Part shown: positions 2,350 to 45,663 of the stretch, in pieces
How the letters are laid out: each line of letters starts with the position of its first letter
Numbering within the stretch: position 1 is the stretch's first letter
Virus record (IMG/VR): IMGVR_UViG_3300025009_000028
Location: 1-47,216 of that record
Strand: one strand, 5' to 3'
DNA: 47,216 nucleotides
DNA from: a virus
The notes under the pieces: model-generated
Told to the model about the DNA's origin: nothing
The model's input: only the letters and a program-made list of their open reading frames with translations
The model's database searches: none
Made by a program: the position numbers and the translations under genes

Positions 2350-2598
2350 ATGCTAGAAACAATCGGAGGCATTATGGGAATCGTAATCACACTTTCAGGG
2401 GTATTATTCGCCCTGTACAAAATTATCAAGCGATTCGAAAACATCGAGGAATCAAGCAAGCATCGGAAGGAGGAAAACATTGTATTGATCAAGGCCACGC
2501 TGGCAATCTGTGACGGACTAGGGCAATTGGGAGCGAATGGTCCAGTGACAAAGTGCAAATGTGATCTACAGGAATACTTGATTGAGAGGGGGGAATAA
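2350..2598 (+). CDS. Small membrane protein of the lysis cassette, holin-like
   Basis: An 82-residue protein. ATG 2350 was chosen over an upstream start at 2290 because GCGGAGG lies 8 bases before it. One transmembrane segment (about residues 6-24) is followed by a charged cytoplasmic-type helix and a C-terminal part with a Cys-X-Cys motif. It sits directly upstream of, and close to, the endolysin gene. One-segment proteins in this position are often holins or XhlA-type accessory lysis proteins. The exact role is inferred from location and topology. Confidence 0.6.
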   Translation: MLETIGGIMGIVITLSGVLFALYKIIKRFENIEESSKHRKEENIVLIKATLAICDGLGQLGANGPVTKCKCDLQEYLIERGE

Positions 2599-2599
2599 A

Positions 2600-3865
2600 T
2601 TGATCTACGAATTTGACCCACTTAAGCAACGCCTTGCTGTGGAACTAGGCGAACCCAACAAACTTGAACGCCTTGACAAAATCCCACGCCCGAGAGCTAA
2701 CGAAACTATTGCAATGGCTATCAACTGGAACGTATTTGACTGGGTAGGCAACTCAAACGGCTACGGCGAAATTGAACAATCCGGAGTACAGATACAGGCT
2801 CCATCCGCTACATACAAGTCTATGTCGTACAAAGATGGCAAGCTAACTTTCGGTGATGTACCCGGCGCACAAGTTGGTGCAGGAATCGCTATGACACTTA
2901 TTTTGGACGGCAAAATTAACATTCAGAATCCGGCTAAAATGTCCACAGGCAAGAACAGCAGAACGGCGTGTGGACAACTTAAAAATGGCAACATTATTCT
3001 TACCACCATGGACAACATGACCACTCAGGAGCTTGCACAGTATATGCTGGGTAAAGGTTGCATTATAGCTTTTCAAGGCGATTCCGGTGGCTCAACAGGG
3101 TATTATGATGGCACATTGCACGATCAAGGCCGTGCGATTGCCGGGGCATTGGTGGTGTACCGTAAGAAATTGATTGCCATTGATGATGGGCACGGTATGG
3201 AAACGCCGGGCAAGCGTACGCCGTTCTTCCCTGGCACAACTCAATTTATGCACGAAAACGAGTTTAACCGCAAAGTTGCCGAATATCTAAAACTCTACCT
3301 TGAACGCTGTGGATTTGACACATTAATGGTTGCTCCCACAGATGCTAACACGCCGCTAAAAGACAGGGCAGATTTAGCTGATAAGGCAGGAGCAGACTTC
3401 TACATCTCTATCCACGCCAACGCCCTAAACGGCATTTGGGGACCGCAGGAAGGTGTAGCAACATATCACTATCCTGGTTCAGCAAAAAGCAACACGGCAG
3501 CTATTATCATCCACAGATATTTAGCCAAAGGGACTAAGCAAAAGGACAGAGGCGTGCTGACAGCAGACTTTTATGTTTTACGTGAAACCGATATGCCCGC
3601 TGTGCTTGTGGAATGTGCCTTTATGGATAATCTCAAAGAGGCGCAATTGCTTTTAACCGATGCTTACAGAAAAGAATGCGCGGATGAAATTTGTCAGGGT
3701 ATATGTGAGTATCATGGCGCGGCATATGTTCCGGCAGTGGTCAGCGTAACAGTACAGGAGTTTCAACGGGCATTTAGGCTTGAGGTTGACGGCATAGTAG
3801 GGCCGATAACAATAAAAAAGATGGGAGAGGTAATGAAACTAATAAATAAATATGTGAAAGGTTAA
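2600..3865 (+). CDS. Endolysin: phosphodiester-glycosidase-like domain plus N-acetylmuramoyl-L-alanine amidase
   Basis: A 421-residue protein. TTG 2600 is preferred over TTG 2582 because the purine run AGAGGGGGG lies 6 bases before it. Residues of about 35-185 resemble phosphodiester glycosidase (NAGPA-type) domains, with the motif GDSGGS near residue 160. Residues of about 190-370 are an Amidase_3 zinc amidase: AIDDGHG supplies the first His, an NEF segment the Glu, SIHAN the second His, and VECAF the catalytic Glu. The C-terminus (VQEFQRAF, DGIVGPIT) is a peptidoglycan-binding repeat. The amidase cuts the bond between muramic acid and the peptide stem. No signal peptide is seen, so it needs the neighbouring holin for release. 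Confidence 0.85.
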   Translation: MIYEFDPLKQRLAVELGEPNKLERLDKIPRPRANETIAMAINWNVFDWVGNSNGYGEIEQSGVQIQAPSATYKSMSYKDGKLTFGDVPGAQVGAGIAMTLILDGKINIQNPAKMSTGKNSRTACGQLKNGNIILTTMDNMTTQELAQYMLGKGCIIAFQGDSGGSTGYYDGTLHDQGRAIAGALVVYRKKLIAIDDGHGMETPGKRTPFFPGTTQFMHENEFNRKVAEYLKLYLERCGFDTLMVAPTDANTPLKDRADLADKAGADFYISIHANALNGIWGPQEGVATYHYPGSAKSNTAAIIIHRYLAKGTKQKDRGVLTADFYVLRETDMPAVLVECAFMDNLKEAQLLLTDAYRKECADEICQGICEYHGAAYVPAVVSVTVQEFQRAFRLEVDGIVGPITIKKMGEVMKLINKYVKG

Positions 3866-4555: not shown

Positions 4556-4585
4556 ATTATAGCAAAAAAATAACCCGGCGGACAA
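4556..4585 (-). promoter_or_regulatory. Promoter embedded in a terminator, driving the 4343-4549 gene
   Basis: The minus strand shows TTGTCC (4585-4580), an 18-base spacer, and TATAAT (4561-4556). The -35 box falls within the loop region of the hairpin at 4574-4590. The start codon 4549 sits 6 bases past the -10 box, where transcription should begin. Confidence 0.5.
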
Positions 4586-4590
4586 CCGGG
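4561..4590 (-). terminator. Terminator of the minus-strand FtsK operon
   Basis: On the minus strand CCCGG (4590-4586) pairs with CCGGG (4578-4574) around a 7-base loop, and TTATTTTTTT follows (4573-4564). It lies downstream of the basic-protein gene that ends at 4651, so it closes the three-gene operon 6757-4651. Confidence 0.75.
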
Positions 4591-4650
4591 CGGGAAAATA
4601 AAATGGTTAATAAATTGGATAATATAACAAAATATAACAAATGTCAACAT

Positions 4651-4893
4651 TTATCTGGGTTTATTCCACGCAAAAAACACCCACTGCCCGAACAGTACCG
4701 ACAAGCGATACCGCAACTTGCCGAATACCTTAATTTTTGCGCTGTTTTCCCCTCGTATCCTCTGCAACTTTTTGTATCTGCGTTCCCATCGTTTGTGCCT
4801 CTCTTTAGCGTTCACGCCCATTAGTTCATTGGCAATATATTTGCCTACTCTTTTGCTGCTTAACATTTTTGGCAATCGTTTTTTCTTGGGCAT
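4651..4893 (-). CDS. Small very basic protein of the FtsK module
   Basis: An 80-residue protein with a high Lys/Arg content throughout, a MPKKKR start and an aromatic C-terminus. A strong ribosome site (CGGAGGGG) lies 6 bases before ATG 4893. It is the last gene of the minus-strand operon with the FtsK-type ATPase and the replication-relaxation-family protein. The charge suggests nucleic-acid binding. No family was recognised. The plus-strand frame over the same bases (4603-4824) lacks such support. Confidence 0.65.
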   Translation of the reverse strand: MPKKKRLPKMLSSKRVGKYIANELMGVNAKERHKRWERRYKKLQRIRGENSAKIKVFGKLRYRLSVLFGQWVFFAWNKPR

Positions 4894-4931
4894 CTTATCC
4901 CCTCCGTGTGATTTATATTTGCTAATATAGC

Positions 4932-5477
4932 CTATTTAAAGAGGGTATCAAGCCCTACCATATCCAAACCTATCAACTTAAATTTAACCGCTGAAACAGG
5001 CAATTTTACGCTTCTATCGGTGCAGATTATTACCCTCGGTTGAGTACCCAACAGTGGGCGAAAATCCATCTTATACTTATCAAAGTTGAAGCTATTGGAT
5101 AGATGCACCTCCACCAATACAGGAAACACTATGCCGCTATGATTTGCATAGCACAGTGCATCCGGTCTAATATTGCCTACTGTAGCCTCATTATGCCATT
5201 CTAGGAGGTCGTATTTAGATTTGATAGAAGTATATAGCTCCGTGCGGATAAGGTCATGGTGAAGCTGTACGGGCTTGTAGCCTGTATAGTATGCGTATGA
5301 ATTATCTATTGTTGAGCGGGTACGCTTGATGTATAAATTGTCGGATAAGTAGCGTAATCGCTGACGGCTGTATTGATACGATGTAGCAGGAAAATATAGG
5401 CGGTGAAGCTGATTTGATGTTGCAATGTGGAAGGATTCAAGAAAGTTGATTATATCTTGATCGCGTGTTGTAATCAT
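4932..5477 (-). CDS. Replication-relaxation family protein (winged-helix, relaxase-associated)
   Basis: A 181-residue protein starting at ATG 5477, which overlaps the upstream FtsK stop in an ATGA arrangement. This is a sign of translational coupling, and GGCGGTG lies upstream. The N-terminus (about residues 1-75) is a winged-helix-like segment containing LHRLYFP and RLRYLS. The second half has an acidic/hydrophobic core with RPDALCY and VEVHLSN. This layout matches the replication-relaxation (MobC-like) family found beside FtsK/TraB-type ATPases in mobile elements of Gram-positive bacteria. It probably binds DNA together with the ATPase. The assignment rests on motif memory and gene context. 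Confidence 0.6.
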   Translation of the reverse strand: MITTRDQDIINFLESFHIATSNQLHRLYFPATSYQYSRQRLRYLSDNLYIKRTRSTIDNSYAYYTGYKPVQLHHDLIRTELYTSIKSKYDLLEWHNEATVGNIRPDALCYANHSGIVFPVLVEVHLSNSFNFDKYKMDFRPLLGTQPRVIICTDRSVKLPVSAVKFKLIGLDMVGLDTLFK

Positions 5478-6757
5478 ACGGCACCGCCTTTCAGATAGGG
5501 ATTGATACACTTATCTCGCAAAGCTTTCATTTCCCGTTGGCGCTCGGCGGCTAGTTCATCACGAGACTTATAAGCCTTATACTTTTTCAGCCAGGTCCGC
5601 ACTTGCTCATTTTCGAGATAGAGGCACTGGACCTCTTTCATTTCGCCCAGGTACTTCATAATGCACCTGCCTTGTTGCTTTATTTTCTCAGCTCCTGGAA
5701 TATCAATTATTACCTCACTGTCTGTGTCGGTGACAACCTTAAAGGCTATGCGGGTGTTCATGCTTCCTTTGATGCTACCCGATATTACTTTTACATCCGG
5801 TCTTTGCAATGAAATGATATATAAGATGCCTACCTTCCTGTCCATTGCAACACGGCTTCTAAATCGGTCTAACAATGATTCATATTGCTTTTCAGCAAGA
5901 CGGGCGAATTCATCAATTACAACAATTTTATAAGGCAAAGCTTGCTCTGGGTAAAACTTATTCCAAACGGACAACTTCTGTATATAGCGCTGTTTCCTGA
6001 CGCTCGCAAATAGTTTCAGACGCCTTGTATTTTCTGTCTCCATTTCATCTATGAGCTTCTCAAAATCTTCCGGTGTCTCTCCGTATGACTTTACTTTTCT
6101 GCAATCTTGAAATATGCCTAATTCTATTGCTTGAAAGTCTATCAAATGCAAGTCTATATCGTGCTTGCTGAGTATTAAGGATAATAGCATAGTCCGTAAT
6201 AAACTTGATTTGCCTGAATTGGGTTCTCCTGCAACAATGGTCTGAGTTGCCTTGTCTATGTCAAAGTAAAATTTCCCTTCATGGGTGTAGCCGATCAGCG
6301 ATTCTGTTGGACTCTCGCATTCCTCAAATTCATAGTCATATTTGTTCTTCAGATTCATTTCTATAAGTTTCATTATGAGGTTTTTATTGTACGAAAATTC
6401 TATCTTACAGTTCAATGCCTGTTCCAACTCTAACTGCTTCTGCTCAAACTGTTTCTGGCTTATCCCCTCCGGCATATGGACAACCAATGTAGTCTCGTTT
6501 CCGGTCCGTATCTTCCGTATCACCAGCGGTATCTTGCCATCCTTCTCCAATCCGCACGCCCTAAATAGCTTCTCGTATTTTCCCTCTGTAAATACCCTAT
6601 CCAACAATAGCCCACCCGTCACACACGCCGCCGCAATCGGTAGTATTGTGGCCGTATCTGCTACCCTATAGAATATCCCCAGTGCCGCATTACCACACAC
6701 CAGCGCCCCTGCTGCGGTCACCCCTGCCAGCCTCCATGTAAACACTTCCTTGCTCAT
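5474..6757 (-). CDS. FtsK/SpoIIIE-type DNA translocase ATPase
   Basis: A 427-residue protein. ATG 6757 is chosen because AAGGGGG lies just before it; the frame is open further upstream but without a ribosome site. Two membrane segments lie at about residues 9-27 and 36-52. The ATPase domain has Walker A GEPNSGKSS (about 177-185) and Walker B KIVVIDEF (about 277-284), followed by an LQRPD segment typical of FtsK motors. It lacks the C-terminal gamma domain of chromosomal FtsK. Size and layout resemble Tcp/ConQ-type coupling proteins of conjugative elements. Its likely job is pumping or positioning double-stranded DNA at the membrane. It is first in an operon with the relaxation-family and basic proteins. 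Confidence 0.8.
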   Translation of the reverse strand: MSKEVFTWRLAGVTAAGALVCGNAALGIFYRVADTATILPIAAACVTGGLLLDRVFTEGKYEKLFRACGLEKDGKIPLVIRKIRTGNETTLVVHMPEGISQKQFEQKQLELEQALNCKIEFSYNKNLIMKLIEMNLKNKYDYEFEECESPTESLIGYTHEGKFYFDIDKATQTIVAGEPNSGKSSLLRTMLLSLILSKHDIDLHLIDFQAIELGIFQDCRKVKSYGETPEDFEKLIDEMETENTRRLKLFASVRKQRYIQKLSVWNKFYPEQALPYKIVVIDEFARLAEKQYESLLDRFRSRVAMDRKVGILYIISLQRPDVKVISGSIKGSMNTRIAFKVVTDTDSEVIIDIPGAEKIKQQGRCIMKYLGEMKEVQCLYLENEQVRTWLKKYKAYKSRDELAAERQREMKALRDKCINPYLKGGAV

Positions 6758-7042
6758 GCCGTCCCCCTTCCGTCCGCCCATTCGTTCCGCTCCGATCCAC
6801 TTGCCTCCGGCGCTCCCATGTACTTGCTTATTGCAAAACATTTTTAAATAGCACCTTTGAACCCTGTTGGACAATTATGTTAGTAAGGTGACTATCAACC
6901 GGTAACGAAACTACTAACGAAACTACTTTATATATATTCTACATTTTGTGAAATGTTGCACAAATATAAGAATTAATTCTAGTAAATGAGTGGTTGCATT
7001 TACATATGGCAGGAAATGTTATAAGATTTTACAGGGGTATAT
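6758..7042. promoter_or_regulatory. Divergent regulatory region between the FtsK operon and the HTH gene
   Basis: This 285-base gap separates the minus-strand FtsK operon from the plus-strand HTH gene. It contains two perfect tandem copies of AACGAAACTACT (6904-6915 and 6916-6927), followed by an alternating TA run (6929-6936). These look like operator half-sites or short iterons. No promoter with good hexamers could be fixed. The small HTH protein at 7043 is a plausible binder. Confidence 0.45.
6904..6927. repeat. Two tandem 12-bp direct repeats
   Basis: AACGAAACTACT occurs twice back to back with no mismatch. The repeats lie in the divergent region, about 150 bases from the FtsK start and 115 bases from the HTH gene. 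They could be an operator or a replication/partition iteron pair. Confidence 0.7.
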
Positions 7043-7243
7043 ATGGGCATATCGTATATGAGATTAAGAGAATTGCTGATTGAAAGAGGTGTCCAGAGGA
7101 AAGCGTTAAAACCTATGGCTGGACTCAGCAACCAAGTTATGTCTAAAATCAACAAAGACGAGCATATGTCAACTGACTCCCTTGAAAAAATAGCCCGCGC
7201 ACTAGGCGTGGAAATAGGTGATATCATATCTCTGAAACCCTAA
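7043..7243 (+). CDS. Small Cro/C1-type HTH regulator (YozG-like)
   Basis: A 66-residue protein made almost entirely of one helix-turn-helix domain (about residues 20-58: LSNQVMSKINK as recognition region, LEKIARALG after it) and ending in IGDIISLKP. This matches the single-domain YozG/HTH_26 group. ATG 7043 has AGGGG about 8 bases upstream; an internal Met at 7058 is an alternative. It faces the FtsK operon across a region with tandem 12-bp repeats and probably controls that operon. No oligomerisation domain is present. Confidence 0.75.
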   Translation: MGISYMRLRELLIERGVQRKALKPMAGLSNQVMSKINKDEHMSTDSLEKIARALGVEIGDIISLKP

Positions 7244-7822: not shown

Positions 7823-7866
7823 GTATGCACGTTTACAATTGTTAGGTGTACGAAACAGTTTTAAAG
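7818..7866. other. Candidate phage attachment site (attP), low confidence
   Basis: Between the 3' ends of the SOS-box gene and the integrase gene lies a short imperfect inverted repeat: TGCACGT (7826-7832) against AGGTGTA (7844-7850), 5 of 7 positions matching as inverted arms, with AT-rich flanks. Serine integrases use sites of about 50 bp with such partial symmetry near their own gene. No bacterial counterpart is available to prove it. The region 7244-7600 is the main alternative. Confidence 0.25.
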
Positions 7867-9312
7867 GTGCATAGTAAATCCACCCACCAAATGAATAGCT
7901 GAAACACGCTTGTCCACTGTAATTTCAACCTCTGTTATCAAGGTTTTTATAAGATCCCTACGTTCCTGCGGAGTAAGATGTTCATAAATTTCAATAAAGG
8001 ATTTAATTTCTTCCAGCACATCAGAAACATCCAATGATTCATTTTTTAATTCTTTTTCTATCGCCAGTTTTTCACTTTGTAACTGGTTCATTTTTTGAAG
8101 CAATTCATTTACACGGTCAGCGAAGGCACCCATTTCAACCTTACCCGATTCAAATAAATCAAAATACTTATTCCGGACTTTTATTGTGTCTGAAATTTGT
8201 TTTTCTATGTTTTCAAGGGTTTCTCTATTACTATTTACTTCAGTATTTTCCGATTTTAAAATATCCCCCGAGGCAGGGTTTATAAGTGCCTTTATTCTGT
8301 CCATAACAATGTTATCTACTTTGTTTAAACTTAATGAAAATCCTTTACACTTATTGCGGTTAGGATTAGATGCTCCGCATCTGTAGATGGGCGTAAAGCC
8401 GTTATAACGGTTTTTGGCTTCAATATAGTATAATTTGTTGCCACATATAGGGCAGGACACTATGCCGGAAAATAGTTGGCTTGCATCTGTTTTCCTTGTT
8501 CTGGTTGACATCTGCGAATTCTTTATTTTTTTCTGAACAGATTCAAACAATTCATCATCAATTATAGGGTCATGTGTGCCTTTCAGTTTTTCAAAATTGG
8601 ATTTTTTAAGGTCTTTTCTGCCAGTGGTGACATAGCCAGTATAAAACTCGTTTTGAAGCATTTTAAGAACAACTTCATGCCTCCACGGCATTCCGTTTCG
8701 GTTTTTATATCCCGATAGATTTAAATATGTCACAAGAGGTCTTATGCCGGAGCCTGATGTGTACCGTGTAAATATTTCCTTGATCAGGACAGCTTTCTCA
8801 GGGTTAACAACTGCGTTTTTCCCGCTATATTCATAACCAAACGGAATAGATGCCTTACTCAACCCCTGTTTAAACCTTTCATTCATTCCCATCTTGACAT
8901 TTTCAATTATTGTATTTCGTTCAAATTCAGCGATGGACCCCAAGAGTTGAAGCAACATTTTCCCAATAGGCGTAGATGTGTCAAAATGTTCGGAATAACT
9001 TAAAAGCGCTATATTGTTTTTATTAAACTCGTCAACTATACCAAGGAGGTCAAGCAAACTTCGACTGAGTCGGCTCAACTTCCAAATTAATACAGCATCA
9101 AACTTATTGTTTTTTGCATCTTCCATTAAATTAATTAGGCCGGGGCGGTCGGTTATATTTTTGCCACTTATTCCAGCATCCTGGTACATTTCATATATCG
9201 TATAATTATAACTTTCAGAATATTTTCTCAGAATTGATGTTTGGGCTGGAAGTGAATAACCCTCTTGGGCTTGCTCTGTGGAACTTACCCTTATATATAT
9301 AGCAACTCTCAT
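7861..9312 (-). CDS. int: Large serine recombinase, phage integrase
   Basis: A 483-residue protein. The N-terminal resolvase domain (about 1-150) carries the catalytic serine in YIRVSS (Ser10) and the WKLSRLSR and GKMLLQLLGSIAEFER signatures. A recombinase domain follows (about 155-265). A zinc ribbon (CPICG plus a Cys-containing YRCG...KCKG segment, about 285-330) and a long coiled coil (about 365-430) complete the usual large-serine-integrase layout. It catalyses attP x attB integration. It is translated from an ATGA overlap with the upstream repressor gene, so both are expressed in the lysogen-forming operon. No truncation is seen. Confidence 0.93.
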   Translation of the reverse strand: MRVAIYIRVSSTEQAQEGYSLPAQTSILRKYSESYNYTIYEMYQDAGISGKNITDRPGLINLMEDAKNNKFDAVLIWKLSRLSRSLLDLLGIVDEFNKNNIALLSYSEHFDTSTPIGKMLLQLLGSIAEFERNTIIENVKMGMNERFKQGLSKASIPFGYEYSGKNAVVNPEKAVLIKEIFTRYTSGSGIRPLVTYLNLSGYKNRNGMPWRHEVVLKMLQNEFYTGYVTTGRKDLKKSNFEKLKGTHDPIIDDELFESVQKKIKNSQMSTRTRKTDASQLFSGIVSCPICGNKLYYIEAKNRYNGFTPIYRCGASNPNRNKCKGFSLSLNKVDNIVMDRIKALINPASGDILKSENTEVNSNRETLENIEKQISDTIKVRNKYFDLFESGKVEMGAFADRVNELLQKMNQLQSEKLAIEKELKNESLDVSDVLEEIKSFIEIYEHLTPQERRDLIKTLITEVEITVDKRVSAIHLVGGFTMHL

Positions 9313-41967: not shown

Positions 41968-44900
41968 ATGGCGTATGTTTCAACAAGAAGGCAGAAGATA
42001 TCGGGGGCGGATAATCAGACTAAAAATAAATCAACAGATGCATATGTTTCTGAACGCCGCAAAAAGGTGCAAGGCATAGTTGATGAAGCTGCTGAACAAA
42101 GCGAGTCTGTCAAAACTGCTGATAGTGGACTTACAAAGATACCTTATGTATCTCCGAATAAAAAGGCTGTACAGGAAAAGAAGGATACTACAAGGCAGAA
42201 ACAGAATGTCAAAGAATCGCGACTAAATGAAGGTAGCACGCCGACAATGAGTTATGCTTTATTGGATAATTTGAAGAAGGCTTCAACGATCCCTACGCAA
42301 AAAGCTGCAGTAACGCAAAAGCCTTTTACGCAAACGCCCATTGACCAACGGTTGCAGATAGGCGGAGAAGCTACAAAGAACGATAACCGCTCATATATCG
42401 GCATGAACATTATACCTGCATATAAAGAAGATACAGGGCTGGAAAAGGTAGGCAAGGGGGTAGTCAATTATGGCGTTGGTGGTGCTTTGTCATTGGCAAG
42501 TAATCTCGCTGGCAGTGTGGGACAGGCAATGATGCAGACCGTATCAAATACGGATAAAGCTATTAAGGGCGAGAAACTTGACTTCTCCGAGAAAACACTT
42601 CGCAAAGACATTCTGCCAAAACAGTACGATGAAGCATTAACCAATCTTGCTAAAACGGGCAAAGGTGGGGCATTAGCAAGTCAAGCTATTGATATGCTGA
42701 TTAACATGGGGCTTGACCCTACAACGTATATCGGCGGTGGTATAGTTGACGATTTGTCGAGAGCTGGAATAATGGGAAAGGCAAGTAAACCGTCAACAGA
42801 GTTTGTCAAACTGGTAGGTGAGAGGCAACAGGCTATACTTGCGAAACAAGCGGCTAAAACGGCTAAGGCAGCGGTAAACAGCGTTGATGCTCCTATGGCC
42901 AATAAGGCCGCAGGAATAGCGGACGATGCCAATATTAAGCAAGCTACAAGCACAATTGACACTCCCACTGTTAATAAAGTGGCAGGGGTAGAGGATACGG
43001 TGGCCGTTAAGCCTACACAAGTCGTACAGCCAAAAATAGAAGCTGAACAGGTAAACACACCTACGGTAAATAAGATAGCTCAAAATGGCGTACAAGAGGT
43101 TGCACCTAAAACCCCATCACAGCAGAAGTATGTCGAACAGGTTACGGCAAAGCTGCCTGATGATGCGGATGGGCTGAGCAAGAAGATTGCTGAACTGGAA
43201 GCGGCAAAGAGTGTTGAAAAAGATGGACATAAACTGTTAAAGATTAACTTACAGTTGTTTGCGGCGAAAAAGAAACTTGATGGATTGAGCAAAGTTTACT
43301 CCAACACTTTAAAGAACACGGATGTCATTCCGCAAGAGGTCAAGAACTTACTTGACGAAGATGATTTCCGCTATGACCCGCTCACTGAAAAACAACAACT
43401 TGAAACTGCAAGGACGAAAATAAACGCTGATACAGATGGAGAATTGAAACGTATACAGGACTTGTCAAGGACGGAATATAATCAAGATGATGTTAATGTG
43501 GGCATGGAATTGTTACATGATTTGTCAAATAAGAAAGACCTTACAGCCGATGAAATAGCCAATATCCGCAAAACAGCAAAAGGTGTATCGCAAGCAGGAA
43601 GAACACAAGGCCGAGGCGTACAGGCATTTGCAAAGTATACACGGACAAAAGAGGGTGTTATTGCTTCGACGCAGAAAGTAGTTGATAAGGTTGAGGATGG
43701 AATCAAAAATACAAATCCAAAGCTGATGGACAAGGTTAAAAAAGAAGCAGAAGAAATTTTTAATAAGGCAAAGAGAGAAGGCAAGAAAGCAGATTACGAC
43801 AAGATATTGTCGCAGGTAAAAAGGAAGTACAACGTGCCTGATTTGACGGACGGCGACATTAAGGCTATTGCTGATTATATGGATAAATATAAAAGTGCTA
43901 TGCCAGGTTCAAGGGAAGCTAAAGAAGCATGGTACAAGGTTATGCAGATAATGAGCAATAAGATACCTCCGACACTGGTTGATAAGTTCAGAGGATTACA
44001 GAGGGTATCGTACTTGCTAAACCCTAAAACACTGTTAGTTAGAAATCCTACAGGCAACGTCGTTATGAATATTGCTGAAACCATTAAGGATCTTCCTGGC
44101 GCAATGGTAGACAAGGTTACATCTGCTGTCCGTAAAAGTGACAGGACAACAGCATTGCCAAGCGTTGGGAGGCTAAGGGCACAATTCAAAGGTGCAAAGA
44201 GCGGATTAGGTGAGGCATTAAAGGATATTAAGGCCGGAGTTGACACATCACCAACGATTGGTATGCTTGAAATGCCGAGAAGGGACGTATTCAGCAATAA
44301 TAACCTCATAGGAAAGGCTTTGAACAAGGCTGATAAGTTAGTAGGGCAGATGCTTCAATTAGGTGATAGACCGTTCTACACAGCCGCATATGATGAGCGC
44401 ATAAGTGACTTATTGAAACTGGGCAAAACTAAAGAAGTCACACAGGAAATGATGGATGCGGCGAATGACTATGCACTTGAAAGAGTATTCCAGAATGACA
44501 GTGGAATTGCACAAGTGTTTAAAGCATTGAAAACGCCACCTGCTAAAGCTCCGCAAGGGTTAAAAGATGCGTGGGGATTTATAGTTAATGGCGTTATACC
44601 GTTTTCTAAGACTCCTGCAAATATCCTCAATAAGCTGCTTGAGTATTCTCCTGCCGGGCTTGCAAAGGCTATCGGGCATGGTGCATACTCTAAGGCTGGT
44701 AAGACGGTATTCAATCAAAAATACTTCGTGGATAACATTGCAAGAGGCTTGACGGGTACAGGACTTGCGACTTTAGGTTATACAATGGCAAGTAAAGGAC
44801 TTATTAAAGGCAAGGCAGACAGTGACAAAGACGTTGCGGCACTTGAAAGATTGATGGGGATTAACTCGTATTCATTTGTAATAGATGGGAAGTCATATAC

Positions 44901-45663
44901 CTTCGATTGGGCACAGCCGGTAGGTTCAGTATTAGCAGCCGGAGCAGATGCGTACTATTCCGGAATGAATAAGGATAACTTCTCTGAACAGTTAAACGCA
45001 GCCTTGCAAGGGTATGGCAATACGTTTTTCAATCAAAGTATGATGCAGAGTTTAACGAGGTTTTTGAACACTTATAATCCGATCTCAGGCGTTGTAAGTA
45101 GCGTGACTGGTACAGCAAACATTGTTACCCCTACTTTCGGCGCACAAGTAGCAAAAACAATCGATCCATATGTAAGGGATACTTCTGCAGATACCGGAAT
45201 AGGTGAAACGGTGAATAAACAGTTGGTGAGGATTCCAGGACTAAGTATGACATTGCCTAAGAAGATTGACACATTAGGGCAAGAGCAGAAACAATCACAG
45301 GGGCGCGGTATTATGGCAAGGGCGGTTGAACAGTTTGTAAGTCCGGGATATTTTGGTGACACAGAAAAATCGAATGAAACCATGAAGAAAATATACGAGA
45401 TTTACAAGGCTACGGATGAAAAAGCTGTATTCCCAAAGCTTGCACCGGAAAGCTTCAGCAGGACCGTGAAGGGTGAGAAAGAAACAGTCAAGTTGACAGC
45501 AGAGCAGAAACGTGAGTGGCAGAAGATTTCAGGCGATTTTTACAGCAAGAACTTCACCCATAGGATAAAAGACAGGCCCGATGATGAAGCAAGGGCAAAG
45601 GCGTTGAAAAAGCTTGCGGATGATGCGTATGATTTTGCTAAAAAGAAAATGTTTCCTAAATAA
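41968..45663 (+). CDS. Large internal virion / ejection protein (1,231 aa)
   Basis: The longest gene, from ATG 41968 behind AAGTGAGGTG. The N-terminal 400 residues are low-complexity (Lys/Ala/Thr) with repeated TPTVNK(I/V)A elements. The middle is helical (LDEDDFRYDPLTEKQQLE onward). The C-terminal half has GDRPFYTAAYDERISDLLKLG, NGVIPFSKTPANILNKLLEYSPAGL and hydrophobic stretches, like LPD38-type polyvalent-protein domains. Where long-tailed phages have a tape measure, this podovirus-type layout has ejection proteins, so it probably leaves the virion with the DNA and may span the envelope. Confidence 0.65.
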   Translation: MAYVSTRRQKISGADNQTKNKSTDAYVSERRKKVQGIVDEAAEQSESVKTADSGLTKIPYVSPNKKAVQEKKDTTRQKQNVKESRLNEGSTPTMSYALLDNLKKASTIPTQKAAVTQKPFTQTPIDQRLQIGGEATKNDNRSYIGMNIIPAYKEDTGLEKVGKGVVNYGVGGALSLASNLAGSVGQAMMQTVSNTDKAIKGEKLDFSEKTLRKDILPKQYDEALTNLAKTGKGGALASQAIDMLINMGLDPTTYIGGGIVDDLSRAGIMGKASKPSTEFVKLVGERQQAILAKQAAKTAKAAVNSVDAPMANKAAGIADDANIKQATSTIDTPTVNKVAGVEDTVAVKPTQVVQPKIEAEQVNTPTVNKIAQNGVQEVAPKTPSQQKYVEQVTAKLPDDADGLSKKIAELEAAKSVEKDGHKLLKINLQLFAAKKKLDGLSKVYSNTLKNTDVIPQEVKNLLDEDDFRYDPLTEKQQLETARTKINADTDGELKRIQDLSRTEYNQDDVNVGMELLHDLSNKKDLTADEIANIRKTAKGVSQAGRTQGRGVQAFAKYTRTKEGVIASTQKVVDKVEDGIKNTNPKLMDKVKKEAEEIFNKAKREGKKADYDKILSQVKRKYNVPDLTDGDIKAIADYMDKYKSAMPGSREAKEAWYKVMQIMSNKIPPTLVDKFRGLQRVSYLLNPKTLLVRNPTGNVVMNIAETIKDLPGAMVDKVTSAVRKSDRTTALPSVGRLRAQFKGAKSGLGEALKDIKAGVDTSPTIGMLEMPRRDVFSNNNLIGKALNKADKLVGQMLQLGDRPFYTAAYDERISDLLKLGKTKEVTQEMMDAANDYALERVFQNDSGIAQVFKALKTPPAKAPQGLKDAWGFIVNGVIPFSKTPANILNKLLEYSPAGLAKAIGHGAYSKAGKTVFNQKYFVDNIARGLTGTGLATLGYTMASKGLIKGKADSDKDVAALERLMGINSYSFVIDGKSYTFDWAQPVGSVLAAGADAYYSGMNKDNFSEQLNAALQGYGNTFFNQSMMQSLTRFLNTYNPISGVVSSVTGTANIVTPTFGAQVAKTIDPYVRDTSADTGIGETVNKQLVRIPGLSMTLPKKIDTLGQEQKQSQGRGIMARAVEQFVSPGYFGDTEKSNETMKKIYEIYKATDEKAVFPKLAPESFSRTVKGEKETVKLTAEQKREWQKISGDFYSKNFTHRIKDRPDDEARAKALKKLADDAYDFAKKKMFPK

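Follow-up and report, generated by a model that had tools for sequence, protein, structure and literature searches.

A phage operon pairing an FtsK-like translocase with a Replic_Relax protein: a candidate DNA-processing module of the relaxase/coupling-protein type

Positions 4651 to 7042 of a 47,216-nucleotide stretch of viral DNA (IMG/VR record IMGVR_UViG_3300025009_000028, positions 1 to 47,216; hereafter the window, meaning the whole stretch) hold a minus-strand operon coding for an FtsK-like membrane ATPase and a Replic_Relax protein, and pose the question of what such a pair of proteins does in a phage. The window carries phage genes for a terminase, a portal, a major head protein, a DnaD-like helicase loader, an endolysin and a large serine integrase; as the latter is present, at 7861-9312 beside the cassette, the window phage is temperate. 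The original prediction found the operon out of place among packaging or lysis functions, and this is borne out: the evidence supports a separate, self-regulated module related to plasmid and conjugation genes.

Operon architecture and phage setting

The features of the operon are collected in Table 1. The coupled minus-strand operon that had been described is there in full (ftsK, replic_relax, the basic ORF and a terminator-like hairpin), as are its own HTH regulator and the perfect tandem 12-bp repeats, the latter displaced by one nucleotide from the 6904-6927 first given. The ftsK stop codon and the replic_relax start codon overlap by 4 nt (ATGA, 5474-5477), and the two genes are thus translationally coupled. 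The start of replic_relax is this ATG at 5477 rather than a GTG at 5510. For ftsK, a TTG start at 6874 is unlikely since the ATG at 6757 has a good ribosome binding site (RBS), GGAAGGGGG; the protein thus counts 427 residues and the leader remains noncoding over 285 bp. The basic ORF, with 25 K+R, 4 D+E and a strong RBS (GGAGGGG), gave no passing family match in family searches and has no detectable relatives. The promoter-like hexamers reach 9/12 matches, which is no better than expected from shuffles of this region.

Table 1. Features of the operon, its leader and the divergent regulator (positions in the window)
Feature	Position	Strand	Remarks
Terminator-like hairpin	4573..4591	-	After the operon; strong, of intrinsic type; 7 pairs, then TATTTTTTT
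Basic protein	4651..4893	-	80 aa; last operon gene; RBS and charge
Replic_Relax (PF13814) protein	4932..5477	-	181 aa; winged helix and PD-(D/E)XK-like domain; MOB_C-type relaxase candidate
FtsK/TcpA-like membrane DNA translocase	5474..6757	-	427 aa; two hydrophobic N-terminal segments and motor domain
Noncoding leader	6758..7042		285 bp, from HTH gene to ftsK; candidate site for an operator, nicking or binding
Perfect tandem repeat 2 x TAACGAAACTAC	6903..6926		In the leader
Promoter-like hexamers TTCACA-16-TAAAGT, for the ftsK operon	6925..6952	-	Adjoin the repeats
Cro/C1-type HTH regulator	7043..7243	+	66 aa, divergent; HTH_26, E = 4.2e-14

The cassette is not a fixed part of this kind of phage. 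It is missing from two phages whose lysis regions are related to that of the window phage (endolysin identity 53% and 82% over the matched part), and a published pair of sister phages, 96% identical, is set apart by the cassette only, its ORFs lying on a piece of 2,525 bp (PMC9476937); absent from two related phages and from one sister phage, the cassette is thus an optional moron. Further differences surround it. Related phages (L016, L017) carry tyrosine integrases where the window has its large serine integrase, so that the integrase adjoining the moron locus has been swapped. In the window endolysin (2582-3865), a NAGPA (phosphodiester glycosidase) part is fused to Amidase_3 and peptidoglycan-binding domains; L016 retains the NAGPA part, and the L017 endolysin ORF begins directly at the amidase. 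Elsewhere in the window, a late protein of 1231 aa without a PHROG match (41968-45663) adjoins the structural genes.

The ATPase and its Replic_Relax partner

The ATPase contains an FtsK_SpoIIIE domain (Pfam, E = 2.8e-13) with Walker A (GEPNSGKS) and Walker B (IVVIDE) motifs, and matches PHROG 1358 (4.8e-64). In chromosomal FtsK/SpoIIIE translocases, a C-terminal winged helix, the gamma domain, reads the KOPS/SRS sequences. By comparison, the window ATPase lacks this C-terminal domain: it has no Pfam match to FtsK_gamma and ends soon after the motor. Its nearest solved protein is a "DNA translocase coupling protein" (6o1w-z), which we take to be TcpA of pCW3 and which comes ahead of FtsK both with the single sequence (6o1z, 2.5e-20 vs 6e-16) and in the profile search of the PDB (6e-48 vs 9e-38). 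A 61%-identical plasmid relative of this coupling protein sits in a TcpC/TcpD/TcpE conjugation locus typed MOBM. TcpA of pCW3 and the window ATPase share an architecture: both are FtsK-like, single-motor membrane ATPases that have membrane segments at the N-terminus and lack a gamma domain. The TcpA/RCR-relaxase modules of Firmicute ICEs and IMEs resemble the cassette in encoding the ATPase just upstream of a non-canonical relaxase, although their relaxases are of the MOB_M, MOB_T or Rep types, unlike the PF13814 protein of the cassette. In a tree of these ATPases, the window protein falls outside the chromosomal FtsK clade and is not joined to TcpA, the deep branches being unresolved; judging from these sequence comparisons, it may work like a TcpA-type pump, whichever group it belongs to.

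The Replic_Relax protein matches PF13814 (E = 4.7e-6) with 27.2 bits, over the curated cut-off of 25.3 bits, and phrog_9996 with E = 7e-17. The same Pfam family is matched, at 2e-6 and 28.5 bits, by TraX, the MOB_C relaxase of the pAD1-type plasmid pTEF1, which PLSDB types as MOBC; PLSDB also assigns "relaxase MOBC" to a Cytobacillus plasmid whose sole PF13814 gene is that of the cassette. Work on streptococcal IMEs likewise treats PF13814 as a family of relaxases (PMC5357655). MOB_C relaxases descend from PD-(D/E)XK nucleases, and TraX binds direct repeats of oriT, a covalent intermediate not having been observed (PMC12857230). The link between the window protein and TraX runs via the Pfam family and a common motif only: a direct hhalign comparison, made with thin profiles, was not significant (probability 0.3, E = 0.18).

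Across 19 aligned members, TraX included, the only invariant residues are an H, a D and an E, corresponding to H85, D117 and E134 of the window protein in GTG numbering. The residue two positions after the invariant E, the third catalytic position, varies between D, E, H and Q: it is H136 in the window protein and also H in Thermoanaerobacterium, Q in SpaA1/GBSV1, and D or E elsewhere. As this position is a histidine in the window protein, nuclease activity is not assured. Modeled with AlphaFold2 (pLDDT 74.5), the window protein displays a winged helix followed by a helix-strand-strand-strand-helix-strand-strand arrangement, in which D117 lies just before strand 2 and E134 within strand 3. The model of the PM1 homologue shares the predicted alpha-beta-beta-beta-alpha-beta type core, again with the D ahead of strand 2 and the E within strand 3, its winged-helix half being of low confidence, whereas the winged helix is clear in the window model. 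Foldseek searches with the window model returned NucS (E 1.1e-3, probability 1.0), Bax1, Can2, MspJI and FokI, along with winged-helix regulators; the PM1 homologue model returned Cdn1/Card1/Can2 (E 3e-4 to 6e-4), with the nickase N.BspD6I as a weaker match. A sequence search of the PDB with the replic_relax profile gave winged-helix-like noise only.

It had been stated that no relaxase is seen at this locus. This is probably wrong: the Replic_Relax protein itself belongs to the Pfam family of MOB_C relaxases, and the models of two family members predict a PD-(D/E)XK-like nuclease fold, the H, D and E residues being kept. The overlooked relaxase is probably this very protein, as far as family membership and predicted structure can tell. 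The suspected link to plasmids and conjugation is in turn supported.

Distribution, pairing and upstream sites

The ftsK/replic_relax pair occurs widely among phages and plasmids of the Bacillus group. In the phage collection, the FtsK of 268TH008 and the Replic_Relax of vB_BhaS-171, used as queries, each match 57 records; these are the same phage records, in which the genes are adjacent with ftsK first. A second subfamily occurs on about 145 plasmids, mostly of Priestia, and nearly all of those listed overlap or adjoin ftsK. GBSV1, SpaA1, 268TH007, TS-12 and the Geobacillus and Cytobacillus plasmids have in common the order HTH(-), small ORF(s), ftsK, replic_relax. This pair is also found in vB_BhaS-171, near a divergent HTH gene. 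In the temperate phages among them, the cassette sits between lysis genes and integrase. In terms of families, the Bacillus pair (PHROG 1358 with 2190 or 9996), found in GBSV1, SpaA1, vB_BhaS-171, 268TH007, PM1, the Andromeda group and pBM400, shows the gene order of the window, with overlapping or adjacent genes and often a divergent HTH gene. The window proteins, however, are only 18-32% identical to its members; the window replic_relax belongs to PHROG 9996 rather than 2190, and the window has an extra basic gene and a large serine integrase where the Bacillus phages have a tyrosine integrase. When viral and genome contigs were searched with single-protein queries, neither window protein had a close relative, and the window replic_relax matched none of the phage records even at E = 10. 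The cassette is a divergent member of a widespread kind already known in Bacillus-like bacteria. Of the three-gene set initially proposed, ftsK and replic_relax, with the divergent HTH gene, recur elsewhere, whereas the basic gene does not; the pair has been described before, but not with a fixed function: it goes under "replication initiation", a PHROG label given without a test, or "hypothetical".

Two plasmids offer variations on this theme. Thermoanaerobacterium plasmid NC_017998 has a second, longer Replic_Relax gene (98588-99139; locus L002) besides its cassette copy. On E. faecium pUAMSEF2 (locus L051, 5815-7817), an FtsK-like gene is overlapped by a gene for a 209-aa protein with a weak DNA/RNA non-specific endonuclease match, forming a pair of FtsK and a possible nuclease of a different type.

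The gap upstream of ftsK is unusual in most of the other cassettes examined, at 150-410 bp. The 2 x 12 bp repeat of the window was reached by none of 300-400 dinucleotide shuffles of the leader, and 268TH007 and a B. subtilis plasmid have 3 x 11 bp repeats upstream of ftsK. In SpaA1 (locus L006, 5990-6144), ten TAYCANRGT units, mostly in 12-bp phase, form an iteron array between the divergent HTH gene and the genes for a membrane protein, FtsK and Replic_Relax; units related to these by eye occur in TS-12 (locus L056, 2309-2612). The idea that all cassettes share a 12-bp repeat ahead of ftsK was tested and rejected: convincing phased repeats of 11-12 bp are limited to the window, SpaA1, 268TH007 and the plasmid twin of the latter, and the 12-bp matches in 268TH008, PM1 and Silence are T-rich. 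The Andromeda/PM1 group has a dyad instead, TTTACTNCGTAAA followed by GAGGTGGCG, which directly precedes ftsK and shows compensated changes in six phages; it was located at L032 3446-3708, L033 3275-3686, L037 3568-3787 and similar loci. Among 2.9 million viral contigs, 8/10 matches to the exact dyad pattern lie just before ftsK, most of them in close kin. The window leader did not show this dyad, which is conserved in the Bacillus subgroup. By their sequence and placement, the upstream repeats and dyads may serve as operators, form RNA hairpins or mark sites of nicking.

Possible roles of the cassette

Our tentative first choice, which may well prove wrong, is that this optional moron, situated between lysis genes and integrase, serves as a compact "nick-and-pump" module for DNA processing and is of the relaxase/coupling-protein type. 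Repression via the leader, by the HTH protein, Replic_Relax or both, would hold the operon quiet. Once expressed, Replic_Relax would bind phage DNA by its winged helix, the 12-bp repeats being a candidate site, and its PD-(D/E)XK domain would nick or open the DNA; the translationally coupled and membrane-anchored ATPase, possibly in a complex with it, would be loaded at that site and pump the DNA. The likeliest use would be the movement at the membrane of excised or replicating phage DNA, including its mobilization to another cell via a resident conjugation apparatus, in the manner of CloDF13, whose mobilization module consists of the coupling protein MobB and the relaxase MobC (PMC7431656). 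CloDF13 MobB/MobC and the TraX system of pAD1/pTEF1 combine a coupling-type ATPase with a relaxase of PF13814/PD-(D/E)XK type bearing the H/D/E motif; on this reading the cassette has the same parts, which are also those of TcpA-type IMEs. In MOB_C systems, however, the ATPase is VirD4-like rather than FtsK-like and the relaxase is longer than the window candidate. For an oriT, the window offers candidate repeats, and no genes of a type IV secretion system (T4SS) were recognized among the window proteins examined. Judged from gene content, transfer between cells by the cassette is plausible. The pair is also carried by Novomoskovsk and Bolokhovo, phages described as virulent (PMC9658697), where conjugative transfer brings no obvious benefit, and one cassette-bearing Geobacillus plasmid already encodes a MOBQ relaxase and MPF genes; transfer is therefore unlikely to be the sole role. 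A further parallel is the "DNA translocation operon" of phage 0305phi8-36, which comprises a relaxase, a translocase and membrane anchors and was deleted without a growth defect (PMC4113786). By its published description it resembles the cassette, but 0305phi8-36 is a jumbo virulent phage with the relaxase gene first in the operon, unlike the window.

The neighborhood of the pair in other elements bears on a different role, in which it would assist the replication, resolution or segregation of the phage as an extrachromosomal (plasmid) element, with Replic_Relax as the replication nickase. The pair adjoins parM, together with a small DNA-binding gene, in clostridial phage-plasmids (L011; CP124686). 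On the Thermoanaerobacterium plasmid parM is close by, on the Geobacillus plasmid repA and parM flank the pair, and a plasmid origin was proposed by the Novomoskovsk authors. Such a maintenance role is nonetheless unlikely here: most cassettes belong to phages that integrate, and lie next to the integrase gene; the window phage itself encodes a serine integrase as well as a DnaD-like helicase loader, with no parM recognized among its ORFs; and the replication label of PHROG comes without a test.

A contribution to the lytic cycle, in which the membrane pump and nuclease would aid genome entry, concatemer handling or host DNA shut-down, is similarly doubtful. It would account for the pair in virulent Andromeda-type phages and in podophages such as Pony (PMC9658697), DNA injection has been suggested (PMC3853050), and the FtsK/SpoIIIE gene of phage Fah is of the "delayed" class (PMC4113786). 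Yet the cassette is missing from the two relatives that share the lysis gene type and from the 96%-identical sister phage (PMC9476937), the 0305phi8-36 operon is dispensable for growth (PMC4113786), and the HTH-controlled, opposite-strand position looks like that of a moron. These last traits, namely a regulator of its own, optional presence and a moron-locus position, would also suit an inter-phage or anti-plasmid defense moron whose translocase and nuclease destroy incoming DNA in lysogens. The ATPase does show weak similarity to the defense models SspH (2.7e-19) and MADS mad8 (6e-18), but this only reflects the common FtsK-family motor; no complete system is present, PADLOC gives no match for Replic_Relax, and we hold defense to be quite improbable.

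The nick-and-pump reading has one far-reaching extension. Streptomyces TraB moves double-stranded DNA between cells alone. It is conceivable, if improbable, that Firmicute phages, temperate and even virulent, use a self-contained relaxase and FtsK-type translocase to pass their DNA to other cells with no virion involved, either alone or via a resident conjugation pore. If such virion-free transfer were true, many phages would be mobilizable elements missed by present typing tools. Seeing the pair as a nuclease/relaxase-type protein coupled to a DNA pump provides a testable hypothesis on how phages and plasmids move or exchange their DNA, and suggests that mobilization genes may be present in elements typed as "non-mobilizable".
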